Source: Oceanispirochaeta crateris (lineage in GTDB: Bacteria; Spirochaetota; Spirochaetia; DSM-2461). From it: a stretch of 64,000 nucleotides of DNA. The stretch lies in the NCBI RefSeq assembly GCF_008329965.1, contig NZ_CP036150.1, forward strand, positions 3,142,439-3,206,438, read 5' to 3'. The position numbers and the translations under genes are program-made. Numbering within the stretch: position 1 is the stretch's first letter; each line of letters begins with the position of its first letter. Below the pieces are notes generated by a model, which saw nothing but the letters and a program-made list of their open reading frames with translations, was not told where the DNA came from and did not search any database. Positions 33,342 through 39,288 of this stretch are shown in pieces.

Positions 33342-34358
33342 TTACTGGAAGTCGATCAGCTCAATTTCAAAGATGAGCCAGGAATTGGGAGGGATTGGAC
33401 CGTATCCATTTTCTCCGTAGGCTAATTCCGGTGGCAGGATGATGACTCTTTTCTCTCCGGCCTGCATGCTCAAAGCCGTTTCTATCCAGCCTGGAATGAC
33501 ACCATCTCTGCCAATAACAAACTGAAATGGTTCGCCCCTTGAGTAGGAGTTATCGAATTCTTCACCTGTGATCAAACGTCCTGAATAATGCATTCTTACA
33601 GTATTTCCAGGGCGGGGTTTTCCACCATTGCCTTGCTGAACCGTCTTGTAATAGATTCCTGTTTCTGATTTCTGAACGTTGTCACCCAGTTGATTCAAAA
33701 TAGAGGCAACTCTGGGATACTCTTCTGCAAAGACCTCTCTGGATTCATCATAGGCCGACTGTATCATCTGTCTTACCGATTCATTGTCTGGAAGGAAAGA
33801 TTCGGCCTCACTGCCTATTCTGATGATTTTCACAGAATCTACGAGATCTCCCCTTTTTAGCTTTGAAAGGGTTTTGTCTCCTGCTATCAGTTTACCGAAT
33901 GTTGTGTATTTCTGATCAAGAAATGAATCACCTTCAATCAATATCATGATCTGGCTTCCATGATCTTCATTTTGTCTGGAAACCATCATCAGAGAACCGG
34001 GTGATTCCGAAGTATAAGAGGAGCCTTCTTCCCTGGGGATGGTATAGCCCACTCCGCCCTCTCCAGTTCCAGTTGGATCTCCTAGAAACAGGGCATATCC
34101 TCTGACTTCTCTGTAAATATTTTGATTTGAATAGTAGGGACCACTGGCGTCTTCAAGTTCCATTTTCCCTTCTGCCAATGCCACAAAATTAGACACCGTC
34201 CGGGGAAGCTGCTCGTAGTCCAGTTGAAAAAGGATATCTCCCTTTATGGTACTGAACCGGGCAAATAGACCCGGAGGCAGAACTTCATCCTGAGCCGAGA
34301 GCATCAGGGGACTCAACATTAATAACAATACTAAACAGTACAGGTTTTTGTTTTTCAT
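33342..34358 (-). CDS. Exported cyclophilin-FKBP fusion with degenerate cyclophilin domain
   Basis: A 338-residue protein with a signal peptide (hydrophobic core CLVLLLMLSPLMLSA). The N-terminal domain (about 35-185) is cyclophilin-like but key residues are changed relative to the neighbouring paralogue: Phe60 is Tyr, Gln63 is Phe, Phe113 is Met, Trp121 is Phe and His126 is Tyr (human CypA numbering); only Arg55 seems kept. The C-terminal FKBP domain (about 245-338) has VRMHYSGRL, GVIPGWIE and LPPELAYG and looks active. GGAG lies near ATG 34358. It seems to have arisen by duplication of the upstream gene, keeping only FKBP activity. Confidence 0.85.
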   Translation of the reverse strand: MKNKNLYCLVLLLMLSPLMLSAQDEVLPPGLFARFSTIKGDILFQLDYEQLPRTVSNFVALAEGKMELEDASGPYYSNQNIYREVRGYALFLGDPTGTGEGGVGYTIPREEGSSYTSESPGSLMMVSRQNEDHGSQIMILIEGDSFLDQKYTTFGKLIAGDKTLSKLKRGDLVDSVKIIRIGSEAESFLPDNESVRQMIQSAYDESREVFAEEYPRVASILNQLGDNVQKSETGIYYKTVQQGNGGKPRPGNTVRMHYSGRLITGEEFDNSYSRGEPFQFVIGRDGVIPGWIETALSMQAGEKRVIILPPELAYGENGYGPIPPNSWLIFEIELIDFQ

Positions 34359-34384
34359 TCTTGTCTCCAGGTCTTTTGTCATTC

Positions 34385-35413
34385 TTAGAAATCGAGAAGT
34401 TCTACTTCAAAAAGAAGCCATGCATCGGGGGGGATGACGCCGCCGGCGCCTCTGCTGCCATAGGCCAGTTCGGGAGGAAGAATGATGGTTCTCTTTTCAC
34501 CTTTCTTCATATCCAGAATGGTTTCGTCCCATCCGGCTATGACTCGTCCGCCGCCAGCAGGGAATTCAAAGGGGGTTCCCCGGTCTACAGAACTGTCAAA
34601 TTTACGCCCATCCAGGAACATACCAGTGTAGTGAACTTTAACGTTTGTACCTGTGGTCGGTTTACTACCGCTTCCTTCTTTTTCGATAATATAGCGGATG
34701 CCTGATTTGGAAACCTGTGCATCAGGCCATTTTTTGTTGATTTCTTCAAGAATACTTTTCTGGGCTTCTGCCTTTTTTCTCATTTCAGCGCCGGCTAACT
34801 TTTCTAGGGCTGCATCAAATGCTTTTTGATCGTTTTCGAAGGCTTCAGCCTTGGCACCGACTCTGATGACTTCAATTGTATTAATTTTATCATTGGCCTT
34901 AATGGCATTGACAACATCTTGTCCTTCTAAAACCTTACCAAAAATGGTGTGCTTACCCTGAAGCCAGGAGGTCTCTACATGGGTTATGAAAAACTGACTT
35001 CCATTTGTACCGGGGCCGGCGTTGGCCATTGCCAAAATTCCGGGACCATCAAACTGAAGGGAATTGTCAATTTCGTCGGGGAAATTATATCCAGGACCAC
35101 CTGATCCTGTTCCTGTGGGGTCGCCGCCCTGAATCATGAAGTCGTCAATGACTCTGTGGAACTTTATACCATCATAATAGTTCCCTTTCTTGTTTGCATC
35201 AATTTTTCCTTCGGCCAAGCCGGTGAAGTTGATGACTGTCAGGGGAGTTTTTTCAAACTCTAGATTCACAAGGATTTCTCCCCGGTTGGTATCAATTAGG
35301 GCGTAAAGTCCATCTTTTAGTGAACTCTTATCTACTGCTACTGCACTCATAGTTGTTGTCATGAGCAGCACGCCTGCCAGCAAAACTGTTTTCAATGTGG
35401 GTTGCCGCTTCAT
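34385..35413 (-). CDS. Exported dual-domain peptidyl-prolyl isomerase (cyclophilin-FKBP fusion)
   Basis: A 342-residue protein with a signal peptide ending near MSAVA. The N-terminal cyclophilin domain (about 35-190) has [27 protein letters not shown] and [10 protein letters not shown], so all usual catalytic residues are present. A charged, probably helical linker (about 195-240) leads to an FKBP domain (about 255-342) with [16 protein letters not shown] and [11 protein letters not shown]. It should catalyse proline isomerisation with two different folds in the periplasm. AGGAGG lies four or five bases before ATG. It heads a run with its paralogue and radA. Confidence 0.92.
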
Positions 35414-35571: not shown

Positions 35572-35600
35572 TTGACAGCTCTCTGAGAACTCTATAAAAT
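35572..35600 (+). promoter_or_regulatory. Strong promoter of the pheST leader
   Basis: A perfect TTGACA at 35572-35577 and TAAAAT at 35595-35600 are exactly 17 bp apart. Transcription should begin near 35607, only about five bases before the ATG of the Phe-rich leader peptide. The 402-bp region between the PPIase and pheS genes is accounted for by the PPIase leader repeats, two promoters, the leader peptide and the attenuator. Confidence 0.75.
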
Positions 35601-35611
35601 CTAATTAAATT

Positions 35612-35692
35612 ATGAGAATCCCGAATTTCTTCTTTATTTATTTTTTGAACTTTTACTTTTTTTCCGGAGGGGAAACCCCGGGGCTTTCATAA
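35612..35692 (+). CDS. Phenylalanine-rich leader peptide of pheST
   Basis: A 26-codon frame reads MRIPNFFFIYFLNFYFFS and then GGETPGLS before TAA. Seven of the 26 residues are Phe and two are Tyr, clustered at positions 6-17. It starts about five bases downstream of the predicted transcription start, so it would be translated without a usual ribosome site, as a leaderless message. It is followed by a terminator and by pheS, as in the enterobacterial pheM-pheST attenuator, though the sequence is not similar. Ribosome stalling at uncharged Phe codons would sense low Phe-tRNA. It is too short for normal gene finding and likely unannotated. Confidence 0.75.
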   Translation: MRIPNFFFIYFLNFYFFSGGETPGLS

Positions 35693-35729
35693 AGAACAGA
35701 TGTTCATAAGAGCCGCAGAGGGTTTCCCC
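35669..35729 (+). promoter_or_regulatory. Antiterminator pairing in the pheST leader
   Basis: GGGGAAACCC at 35669-35678 is the exact reverse complement of GGGTTTCCCC at 35720-35729, which is the inner 5-prime arm of the terminator. The two pairings exclude each other. The first element lies just after the Phe codons, so a stalled ribosome leaves it free, whereas a ribosome reaching the stop codon at 35690 covers its surroundings. The same element can also fold locally as GGGG-AAA-CCCC. Confidence 0.65.
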
Positions 35730-35759
35730 ATAAGGGAGACCCGCTGCGGCTCTTTTTTT
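35709..35759 (+). terminator. Attenuator terminator before pheS
   Basis: AGAGCCGCAG (35709-35718) pairs with CTGCGGCTCT (35744-35753); inside it GGGTTTCCC (35720-35728) pairs with GGGAGACCC (35734-35742) with one G-U pair and a five-base loop. A run of T follows to 35759. No gene ends upstream on this strand, so it can only act on the pheST leader transcript. Confidence 0.9.
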
Positions 35760-35815
35760 GCATCATCGAAAATACAGGGCTTTTTGGTCCTAATCAAATA
35801 TTTGCGAGGTCCGGA

Positions 35816-36859
35816 ATGCTACAAAATCTGGAAGATCTGAAGAACGAATTTTCCACAGCCCTGAATGAGGTGAAAGATCAATCCTCATTGGTGAACCTGA
35901 AGGCTGATTTCCTGGGAAAAAAGGGAAAACTGAATAACATCCTCAAATCTCTGAAGGATGCCACGCCAGAAGTTCGAAAAACTCTGGGGATGAAATCTAA
36001 CCAGCTCAAAGAAACGATACTGGCTGACATAGAGAAAAAGATGACAGCTTTGGAGCTCTTTGAGATCAATGAAAGACTTAAAAAGAACTGGCAGGATATT
36101 ACTTACCGTTCGTCACTTCGGGATCAGGGGCTGACTGCGGCAGGGTATCATCCTGTGACGATCATTCAGAGAGAAATCGAAGATATTTTTACATCCATGG
36201 GTTTTGAGATCCTCGATGGTCCTCATATCGAAAATGAATACTATAACTTTGAAGCATTGAACATTCCCGATACCCATCCGGCAAGAGACATGCAGGATAC
36301 GTTCTGGTTTAAAGACATGAAGCATCTTTTGAGAACCCATACATCTTGTATTCAGGCTCGTGGCATGGAGAAGAGAACTCCTCCTTTTAAATTCATCGGG
36401 CCTGGAAAAGTATTTCGCTGTGAAGCGACCGATGCCTCTCATGAGGCTGCCTTTCATCAGTTGGAAGGGATGATGGTAGGCAAGGATATATCTGTTGCCA
36501 ACTTGATTTACTTCATGAAAACACTCCTGAGTGAAATCTTTAGAAAAGAGGTCAATGTGAGACTTCGTCCGGGGTTCTTTCCTTTTGTAGAACCCGGATT
36601 TGAACTAGATATCGAGTGTCTTATTTGCGGCGGTTCGGGTTGTTCTGTTTGTAAACAGTCCGGATGGGTTGAACTTCTTCCCTGCGGGATGGTCCATCCC
36701 AATGTCTTAAGACATGGGAATGTTAATCCCGATGAATACAATGGATTCGCCTTTGGTCTGGGATTAGACCGGCTGGTCATGATGCGTTACGGTATCGATG
36801 ATATCCGGCACCTTCATAGCGGAAACCTTTCTTTCGTTTCTCAGTTCAAAACATTTTAA
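35816..36859 (+). CDS. pheS: Phenylalanine--tRNA ligase alpha subunit
   Basis: A 347-residue class II synthetase subunit. The N-terminal coiled-coil arm is followed by the catalytic core with HPARDMQDTFW, LLRTHTS and the C-terminal GFAFGLGLDRLVMM motif 3; FFPFVEPGFELD marks the Phe pocket. A Cys-rich insertion (CLICGGSGCSVC) near residue 275 may bind zinc and is unusual in length and pattern but occurs in some bacterial PheS. GAGGT lies six bases before ATG. It is expressed from the attenuated promoter upstream. Confidence 0.97.
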   Translation: MLQNLEDLKNEFSTALNEVKDQSSLVNLKADFLGKKGKLNNILKSLKDATPEVRKTLGMKSNQLKETILADIEKKMTALELFEINERLKKNWQDITYRSSLRDQGLTAAGYHPVTIIQREIEDIFTSMGFEILDGPHIENEYYNFEALNIPDTHPARDMQDTFWFKDMKHLLRTHTSCIQARGMEKRTPPFKFIGPGKVFRCEATDASHEAAFHQLEGMMVGKDISVANLIYFMKTLLSEIFRKEVNVRLRPGFFPFVEPGFELDIECLICGGSGCSVCKQSGWVELLPCGMVHPNVLRHGNVNPDEYNGFAFGLGLDRLVMMRYGIDDIRHLHSGNLSFVSQFKTF

Positions 36860-36873
36860 TTCAAGGAAGCACC

Positions 36874-39288
36874 ATGTATATATCAATAGAATGGATCAAA
36901 GATTTTGTAGATCTTCCCGAGATCAGCCCCGAAAAACTAGCCGAACGTTTCACCATGGCCACCTGTGAAGTAGATGATGTTCTGACCACAGGGGAACTGC
37001 TGAAACGAGTGCGTGTCGTAGAGATCACTCAAGTGGAGGACCATCCCGATTCCGACCATCTTCATTTGGTTCGGTTTACAGACGGTAAAGAAGAGCGTCA
37101 GGTTGTTTGCGGAGCTCCCAACGTGGCTGTGGGTAAAAAGGTTCCTTTTGCTCCATTGGGAACAACTTTTTCCGGTGGATTTACTCTGACCCCCAAGAAA
37201 ATCCGGGGCATTGTTTCCGAGGGCATGCTCTGCAGTGAAACAGAACTGGAGATAGGGGATGATGACTCCGGGCTTAAAATCTTTCCGGATGATGCCCCTC
37301 TTGGACAATCAGTAGGCGATTATATTGGTCAGAAAAATGACATCCTCTTTGACATAGATAACAAATCCATCACCCACCGACCCGACCTTTGGGGGCATTA
37401 TGGAATGGCGCGTGAGTTTGCCGCGGTTTTTGGAAACCCCTTAAAGGATATCTGGAATTCTGAATGGGAGAAGACCATCCGGTCTTGGATGAACGATGAA
37501 AAACCACCGGTAAGCATCTCGGTAGATCCCGATTCAGCCAATCTTGGGTTCACTGGGATTTCCATGGATAATATCACAGTCAAAAATAGCCCGCAATGGA
37601 TGCAGGACCGTTTGAATGCCTGCGGTATGAGGCCCATCAATAACATCGTTGATATTTCAAATTATGTCATGCTGGAATTGGGAATCCCCAATCATATTTA
37701 TGATAGAAATACAATCCGGGGAGAAGAAATCATTGTCCGCCGAGCCGGTGATGACAAAGAGTTCGTAACCCTTGACGAAGTTACAAGGGAGCTTCTCCCT
37801 ACGGATACCATGGTTTGTGATGCCCAGGGGCCCTCCGGGATTGCCGGAATCATGGGAGGACTGGACAGCAGTATTGCCGATACGACGTCCCGGATATTTA
37901 TAGAAGTAGCCAACTGGAAGGATTCGGAAGTCCGCAGGACAGCCACCAGATTGGGTCTCAGGACCGATGCTCTGCAACGCTATGAGAAGTCTCTGGATTC
38001 ACAGCTTCTAGAAAGAACCCTGCTTCGCTTGGTTGAACTGGTTCGGGAGAGCTGTCCAGAAGCTAAGGTGAGAGGCTCTGTTGTCATGGCAAATATGCCT
38101 GAATACAGCCCCATGGTTATCAATGTCAGTCCTCAGCGGATTTGCCATGTTCTGGGAAAGGATGTTCCTGCCGACGAGATTGTCAAAATTCTAAGAGCCC
38201 TGGATTTTACTGTTGTTCAATCAGAGACGGGTCTATCTGTGACAGTCCCCTCTTACAGGGCCACAAAAGACATTGAATGTGATGCGGATATCATCGAGGA
38301 GATTGGACGGGTTATCGGGTATGACAATATTACTCCCGAATCTCCTTTGAATACCATATCGGCGGTCAGGCTGTCAGAAGCCAAGGTGAAAAGCCGAAAG
38401 ATTCAGGATTTTATGGTCAACCGGGTAGGTGCCCTTGAGATCATGACCTATCCCATGGTAGGTGAGAAGCTTTTGGATCAGGCTTACTGGCCCGTAAAAA
38501 ATGAATCTTTAGTTCTGGTGAATGCCATGAGTCCTGAATCAGATAGGATGAGACCTTCGTTGATTCCCAGTCTGATGGCTTCTACGGCTCTGAATCAGAA
38601 GAGTTACAGCTCTTTTAGAATGTTTGAACTGGGACGGAGTTATCAGGAAGATACCAAGGAATTCTCCAATGAACGCTATCAGTTTGGTTTTGTGGCTTTT
38701 GATAAAAAGAAGTCCCCCTACCTGGAAGTGGCCAATGCCATGGAAGAACTTTTAAATTCCCTGAATATTTCCTTCCGCATGGTTCCCGGGGCAAATGACC
38801 GGAATCCCTTATACCCTCAGAACTGGGAAGGTCTTCATCCCTACGAAACCATGGATATTCAGATCATGGGTAAGAGTCGGGGATATATTGGAACCATTCA
38901 CCCTCTGGTCTGCAGAAATTTCAAGATCAAGGGCCAGTTGGTCATCGCCGTATTGGACCTCACAGACTTTCAGGATCAGAGGATGAAGGATAAGACCAGG
39001 TACCAACCCTTAGACAGATTTCCTTCTTCTTTGTTTGACTGTACTGTCCTGGCTGACGCTCAGACTCCTGTGGAGGATGTGGTGAAAGCCTTAAAGACCA
39101 TGAAGATGAAAGAATTGGACTGGGTTAAAGTGGCCGATGTGTTTGTTATGTCAGAAGAACAAAAGGCTGTTACCTTAAGGATGTCTTTCAAGGATCCGGA
39201 AAAAACACTGGCAGGTGATTTTATCAAAGAGGCCGAAGACCTGGCGGTGAAGACCCTGGAGAGCAAAGGATTTCCATTAAAAGTTTAA
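36874..39288 (+). CDS. pheT: Phenylalanine--tRNA ligase beta subunit
   Basis: An 804-residue subunit of the alpha2-beta2 enzyme. It begins MYISIEWIKDFVDLP, has an EMAP-II-like tRNA-binding domain (about 40-150, with DHPDSDHLHLV and GAPNV), the B3/B4 editing domain, B5 and the catalytic-like domain, and ends in the ferredoxin-fold anticodon-binding domain (RYQPLDRFPSSLFDCTV onward). Length is typical. AAGGA lies eight bases before ATG and the gene starts 14 bp after pheS, so the two form one operon. Confidence 0.97.
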   Translation: MYISIEWIKDFVDLPEISPEKLAERFTMATCEVDDVLTTGELLKRVRVVEITQVEDHPDSDHLHLVRFTDGKEERQVVCGAPNVAVGKKVPFAPLGTTFSGGFTLTPKKIRGIVSEGMLCSETELEIGDDDSGLKIFPDDAPLGQSVGDYIGQKNDILFDIDNKSITHRPDLWGHYGMAREFAAVFGNPLKDIWNSEWEKTIRSWMNDEKPPVSISVDPDSANLGFTGISMDNITVKNSPQWMQDRLNACGMRPINNIVDISNYVMLELGIPNHIYDRNTIRGEEIIVRRAGDDKEFVTLDEVTRELLPTDTMVCDAQGPSGIAGIMGGLDSSIADTTSRIFIEVANWKDSEVRRTATRLGLRTDALQRYEKSLDSQLLERTLLRLVELVRESCPEAKVRGSVVMANMPEYSPMVINVSPQRICHVLGKDVPADEIVKILRALDFTVVQSETGLSVTVPSYRATKDIECDADIIEEIGRVIGYDNITPESPLNTISAVRLSEAKVKSRKIQDFMVNRVGALEIMTYPMVGEKLLDQAYWPVKNESLVLVNAMSPESDRMRPSLIPSLMASTALNQKSYSSFRMFELGRSYQEDTKEFSNERYQFGFVAFDKKKSPYLEVANAMEELLNSLNISFRMVPGANDRNPLYPQNWEGLHPYETMDIQIMGKSRGYIGTIHPLVCRNFKIKGQLVIAVLDLTDFQDQRMKDKTRYQPLDRFPSSLFDCTVLADAQTPVEDVVKALKTMKMKELDWVKVADVFVMSEEQKAVTLRMSFKDPEKTLAGDFIKEAEDLAVKTLESKGFPLKV

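Follow-up and report, generated by a model that had tools for sequence, protein, structure and literature searches.

The question raised by this locus is whether the pheST operon of Oceanispirochaeta crateris is controlled through the translation of a short leader peptide. The first-pass annotation of the window (the whole stretch of 64,000 nucleotides that was analysed) had read the region in front of pheS in this way. Its basic observations held: a 26-codon frame with seven Phe codons lies at 35612-35692, a strong terminator stands between this frame and pheS, the gene downstream of the terminator is pheS (TIGR00468), and an Rfam search gave no T-box in the leader. On the sequence comparisons given below, we consider it highly probable that a ribosome-mediated transcription attenuator operates here and ties the expression of pheST to the amount of Phe-tRNA available. 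The parts of the locus and its neighbours are:

34385-35413, minus strand: left neighbour, a relative of FKBP-type prolyl isomerases, divergent from pheS
35572-35600, plus strand: sigma-70-type promoter TTGACA-N17-TAAAAT, 11/12 consensus matches, the top one in the 5.8 kb scanned
About 35606-35608, plus strand: predicted transcript start, from the position of the promoter
35612-35692, plus strand: leader peptide frame, MRIPNFFFIYFLNFYFFSGGETPGLS and a stop, 26 codons, 7 Phe
35627-35662, plus strand: Phe control region, Phe codons 6, 7, 8, 11, 14, 16 and 17 and two Tyr codons
35690-35692, plus strand: stop codon of the leader frame
35708-35759, plus strand: intrinsic terminator (helix 3:4) and U7 tract, -38.8 kcal/mol
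35816-36859, plus strand: pheS, bacterial type, TIGR00468, 293.8 bits (NCBIfam, above cut-off)
36874-39288, plus strand: pheT, bacterial type, TIGR00472, 623 bits (NCBIfam, above cut-off)

The terminator hairpin occupies 35708-35754 and begins 15 nt past the leader stop codon; its U7 tract lies at 35753-35759. From the leader stop codon to pheS there are 123 nt, and the Shine-Dalgarno sequence of pheS is GAGG at 35806-35809. The folding energy of the 244-nt leader was 4.65 standard deviations below that of dinucleotide shuffles. Because the left gene is divergent, the terminator can act only on the transcript from the promoter at 35572-35600. On this left side, the minus strand at 33342-35413 carries two adjacent genes with FKBP-type prolyl isomerase domains. 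The N-terminal half of the one adjoining the attenuator also matches cyclophilin-type models, so it is apparently a fused two-type isomerase. A pairing of 7 nt between 35662-35668 and the pheS start is absent from the other members of the genus and was taken as chance.

PheS searches were made in the family, the class, the phylum and a named genome collection, and the upstream regions were compared. The comparative set comprised 27 Spirochaetia loci of six families (genera g1, g2, g3, g4 and g6 of the same family as the window, and families f4, f6, f19, f24 and f31), all with bacterial-type pheS. The order of the parts was the same in 27/27 loci: a promoter equivalent to that of the window at the same place, an ATG, a frame of 20-29 codons, a stop and a terminator. 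The distance from stop to terminator was 15-33 nt in all loci. Terminators were found by computed detection in 26 loci, and that of L092 was picked by hand. With up to 11 Phe codons, these frames are longer than the pheM frame. The number of leader Phe codons was 6-11 in 24 of the 27 loci and 4-5 in the other three, which belong to genus g6. The leader peptides vary between genera (for example, MKSRFFAFTSFSFFSFFFFFRNK, MTGTTFFFSFFFSFFFFGKGC, MENRSRFFSFFFFFSNSADEGQRFSLK and MTGMQGIFFSFFFFFFSTQEGPGLP), and between most genera only the Phe content is kept.

The leaders of genus g6 were considered separately. The loci L097, L098, L099, L100 and L105 have the promoter-terminator layout of the other members, with 2-5 Phe codons in the frame and a conserved motif, SVYS[LQ]F; L097 and L105, which were read later, have fewer Phe codons than the other three. 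The g6 leader may encode an arrest peptide or may sense Tyr/Phe. That the layout works in g6 by nascent-peptide arrest and not by codon starvation is unlikely in our opinion, although it deserves serious attention, since so few Phe codons stand beside a conserved motif, promoter and terminator. The motif could also be kept for RNA pairing, the genomes are few, and an arrest mechanism in g6 would have no bearing on the genus of the window.

The start of the leader frame is unusual in its position. In 27/27 loci, 6-12 nt separate the end of the -10 box from the ATG, and the transcripts are predicted to carry a 5' leader of about 0-6 nt; in the window, about 4-6 nt lie between the predicted 5' end and the start codon. 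A Shine-Dalgarno site is absent before the leader ATG in all 27 loci, and the -10 box occupies its place. One study takes a TA-like signal located about 10-12 bp upstream of the start codon as the mark of leaderless bacterial genes (PMC3160421), and a TA-like -10 signal of this kind precedes the leader frame in 27/27 loci. The leader peptide therefore looks leaderless or nearly so, and its translation would rest on near-leaderless initiation because the Shine-Dalgarno site is missing. The exact consensus promoter with a near-leaderless ATG, used as a search pattern, had 0 matches in the genome because the -10 box of the window is TAAAAT.

A leaderless attenuator RNA with functions in trans is known (PMC7298713), and the terminated RNA predicted here, of about 150 nt, has the same build. 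There is thus a small chance that, besides cis attenuation, this RNA or its peptide acts in trans like rnTrpL/peTrpL of Sinorhizobium meliloti. The poor conservation of the peptide beyond its Phe content between most genera argues against such a role.

Attenuation requires that the RNA can fold in alternative ways, and the following elements were found in the leader:

35610-35623, plus strand: region 1, 5' arm of helix 1:2, contains the start codon, inverted repeat
35669-35686, plus strand: region 2, 5' arm of antiterminator 2:3
35679-35692, plus strand: 3' part of region 2 at the frame end, 3' arm of helix 1:2, inverted repeat, covaries in relatives
35694-35705, plus strand: small hairpin GAAC-AGAU-GUUC, nested in the antiterminator
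35708-35729, plus strand: region 3, 5' arm of the terminator and 3' arm of the antiterminator

In the window, the helix 1:2 duplex had an energy of -16.0 kcal/mol (p = 0.003 against shuffles). The core of the antiterminator is a perfect 10-bp complementarity between 35669-35678 and 35720-35729. For an RNA ending at 35735, the minimum-energy fold was the antiterminator, with 35669-35686 paired to 35708-35729 around the small hairpin. Once the second arm of the terminator was present, the terminator outcompeted the antiterminator in folding. The three helices are mutually exclusive: region 2 is common to 1:2 and 2:3, and region 3 to 2:3 and 3:4. By eye, a small inverted repeat just past the leader stop recurs in f24, f6 and g6 loci with different sequences (GAAC..GUUC in the window; CCCUG..CAGGG, GAUC..GAUC and AUCUG..CAGAU in the others).

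The pairing was then compared across families. The mean pairing energy of region 2 was -15.6 kcal/mol with its own terminator 5' arm and -11.9 ± 0.7 when the arm came from another family; that of region 1 was -17.4 kcal/mol with its own region 2 and -11.8 ± 0.9 with a region 2 from another family. Own-locus pairing of 1:2 and 2:3 was equalled by 0/20,000 family permutations, also after correction for composition, in a test that takes families as exchangeable though their ancestry is shared. Several single loci failed to beat shuffles individually. Both helix 1:2 and the antiterminator were weak or not found in genus g4, where the 2:3 pairing was at chance level in two of three loci.

In an alignment of nine sequences, helix 1:2 was 85.9% paired, the antiterminator 88.7% and the terminator 98%; the alignment was not fitted to the structures and the structures came from one member, so these percentages lean favourable. 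The changes on both sides of a pair are better evidence than the percentage paired. Helix 1:2 has seven such pairs, against 2.2 ± 1.1 in shuffles (0/500 as high). In the antiterminator, pair 90-134 changes from C-G to U-A in three loci, and base 134 is still paired in the terminator. As far as sequence can establish it, the anatomy of the switch is in place: its elements, their conservation, the mutual exclusivity of the predicted helices and the compensatory changes. The first-pass annotation had asked for Phe-rich frames before pheS in relatives and for covariation in the hairpins. The 24 of 27 terminator-bearing loci with 6-11 Phe codons (4-5 in the three of g6) answer the first and the seven two-sided pairs of helix 1:2 the second. 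Together with the antiterminator, they support its view of pheST as probably governed by a leader-peptide attenuator. Its refuting case, relatives that keep the terminator but lack a Phe-rich frame, was checked on the same loci, and the outcome favoured the attenuator. The promoter, the near-leaderless start without a Shine-Dalgarno site, the antiterminator and the restriction to bacterial-type pheST go beyond that annotation.

Two further explanations were weighed against the attenuator. The terminator could be an ordinary one, belonging to a stand-alone small RNA or another transcript, and a T-rich tract could by chance read as a Phe-rich frame. Phe-rich short frames are indeed common. The same genome was scanned over 1.66 Mb (41%), 269 kb of it outside long ORFs, for short frames with at least six Phe and at least 20% Phe and an intrinsic terminator within 110 nt. 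The scan gave 52 Phe-rich short frames, and only 1/52, that of the window, had a terminator within 110 nt. A Phe-rich frame alone is weak evidence, but its combination with a terminator is not. No convincing leader frame rich in another single amino acid was found in the 1.66 Mb scanned. In the tracts from the first to the last Phe codon of the 27 loci, there were 157 TTT, 63 TTC, 7 TCT and 1 CTT codons. TTT and TTC are far above TCT and CTT; therefore, the Phe coding frame is kept and not a T tract. The Phe run persists in the relatives with the T/C variation at third codon positions, and insertions within the tracts are multiples of three. The gene upstream is on the opposite strand, and 27 loci retain promoter, frame and terminator as a set. 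The two ends of the frame pair both mutually and with the terminator, and these pairings show compensatory changes. We regard this explanation as very improbable.

The leader had no match to any Rfam family at the gathering threshold. For the T-box, there was no match at the gathering threshold in the window and none at E<=5 in the leader. Membership of RF01859 (Phe_leader) was rejected: the window scored 31.1 bits against a gathering score of 55 bits, scores of 28-34 bits are background in this genome, other places of which reach 30-34 bits, and 0/18 relative loci matched. A direct reading of the leader by a protein or a tRNA, T-box-like or by PheRS autoregulation and with no ribosome, would suit the strong alternative structures and a tRNA synthetase gene, a common T-box target, but it is scarcely credible beside the lack of a T-box or other Rfam match and the fact that the feature kept between families is a Phe-rich frame of changing sequence.

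For the ribosome-mediated attenuator, we infer from this anatomy that the frame is translated, that it starts at the predicted site, that ribosomes stall on it and that readthrough is regulated. RNA polymerase would initiate only a few nucleotides ahead of the AUG, and the exposed 5' end would take up a ribosome with no help from a Shine-Dalgarno site. When Phe-tRNA is scarce, the ribosome would stall in the Phe run and leave region 2 (35669-35686) free. Free region 2 would pair with region 3 (35708-35729), the terminator would not form, and pheST would be transcribed. When Phe-tRNA is plentiful, the ribosome would reach the stop at 35690-35692 and mask region 2, so that the terminator forms and transcription ends. 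If no ribosome is loaded, region 2 and the start codon would both be sequestered in helix 1:2, and the terminator would form; termination without translation is thus expected because of helix 1:2. A ribosome covers about 12-15 nt ahead of its A site. With the A site on an early Phe codon (6 to about 14), 35669 onwards would be left free, and a ribosome at the stop codon would extend to about 35705-35707, immediately before the terminator. The stop-to-terminator distance of 15-33 nt in the relatives fits the idea that the terminator stays free while a ribosome occupies the stop codon.

We also propose, tentatively and with more doubt than confidence, that the mechanism makes use of the near-leaderless start. 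The element would in that case sense two quantities, the supply of Phe-tRNA and the capacity to initiate on leaderless messages; it would have evolved once, as an ancestral spirochaete attenuator, and would travel with bacterial-type pheST. The AUG would be the first part out of the polymerase and would later be buried in helix 1:2; therefore, a ribosome would have to load before region 2 is made, or termination would be committed.

Judged as a classical attenuator, the locus has repeated operon-linked amino-acid codons (7/26 Phe; 6-11 in 24/27 loci), an intrinsic terminator between the leader frame and the first gene, and exclusive 1:2, 2:3 and 3:4 helices with region 2 masked at the stop, the last being weak in g4. 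A leader frame led by a Shine-Dalgarno site, a usual but non-defining trait, is absent in 27/27 loci; leaderless leaders are known (PMC7298713). The pheM-pheST attenuator of E. coli and other gamma-proteobacteria is a classical case (PMC1262725) and has the Phe-rich leader peptide, terminator and pheST operon in common with the spirochaete element. The spirochaete element differs in phylum, in its missing Shine-Dalgarno site and in its start codon near the 5' end. It also stays below the cut-off of RF01859.

Other known systems share single traits. The trpL leader RNA of S. meliloti begins at the ATG of the leader frame and has a terminator/antiterminator switch (PMC7298713). The trpL-trpE(G) attenuator resembles our element in both respects; it senses Trp, serves a biosynthetic operon and belongs to an alpha-proteobacterium. 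The polycysteine short frames of mycobacteria (Canestrari et al. 2020, cited in PMC13236596) are leaderless, rich in one amino acid and upstream of related genes. They differ in the amino acid, and the passage of PMC13236596 that cites them speaks of translation attenuation, without a terminator switch. Attenuators predicted before trpS and leuS in Streptomyces (PMC1262725) are also cases of leader-peptide attenuation of a tRNA synthetase gene outside the Proteobacteria, for other amino acids and in another phylum. In Rhodobacterales, uORFC-8-2 precedes cysS (PMC8632094) and is likewise a leader frame with cognate codons before a tRNA synthetase gene, for cysteine and in alpha-proteobacteria. 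No report of leader-peptide attenuation in spirochaetes was found in the literature searched; the survey of Lopatovskaya et al. 2010 (cited in PMC4833913) lies outside it and could contain one. As far as found, pheST attenuation is known from E. coli, and what is new is its presence in this phylum and its form with almost no leader.

The distribution of the element follows the type of PheS. Among the loci compared, the attenuator goes with bacterial-type pheST only. No element was found before archaeal-type pheS in 16 genomes, for which the pheS start codons had been assigned by a mechanical rule. It was likewise not found before pheS in L101, L104, L107 (only 260 nt), L109, L117, L118, L124-L126 and L128-L130. 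The 19 genomes examined from the phylum's other classes (one with only 59 nt) gave no convincing Phe leader, and neither did Bdellovibrionota, Acidobacteriota and others with similar PheS. Neither frame nor terminator precedes pheS of genus g5 (L094, L095 and L096). In the PheS tree, g5 groups with the attenuator-bearing g4, an apparent loss. On this tree, which has long branches, the trait takes 6 changes compared with 14.7 for shuffled labels; the attenuator is clustered, and losses are possible. The core AGCTTTTTTTTCTTTTTTAGC is common to several families and suggests one origin, but the Phe run restricts the sequences that are possible. The PheS of L008 (Desulfogranum marinum) groups with the spirochaete g3/f4 sequences. 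Upstream of its pheS are a promoter and a terminator, with an ATA 10 nt past the -10 box followed by QRVYFFLFLVYRDG and a stop. L008 may carry a transferred attenuator that is decaying or has a non-standard start.

A 2011 description treats archaeal PheRS as a derived character that Spirochaeta, Borrelia and Treponema share (PMC3191353). Our class-wide PheS search split the Spirochaetia into bacterial and archaeal types, with the bacterial type in at least 10 families, which suggests that the split within the class exceeds that implied by the 2011 description. The attenuator marks off the bacterial-type from the archaeal-type PheRS lineages within the Spirochaetia.

Overall, free-living spirochaetes appear to switch on pheST by means of a ribosome stalled on a Phe-rich frame at the very start of the message. 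This would extend leader-peptide attenuation of a tRNA synthetase operon to the Spirochaetota. In the comparative set of 27 members, the start, the sensor, the antiterminator and the terminator can each be tested, and the conserved absence of a Shine-Dalgarno site would offer a natural system for how leaderless initiation keeps pace with the polymerase.
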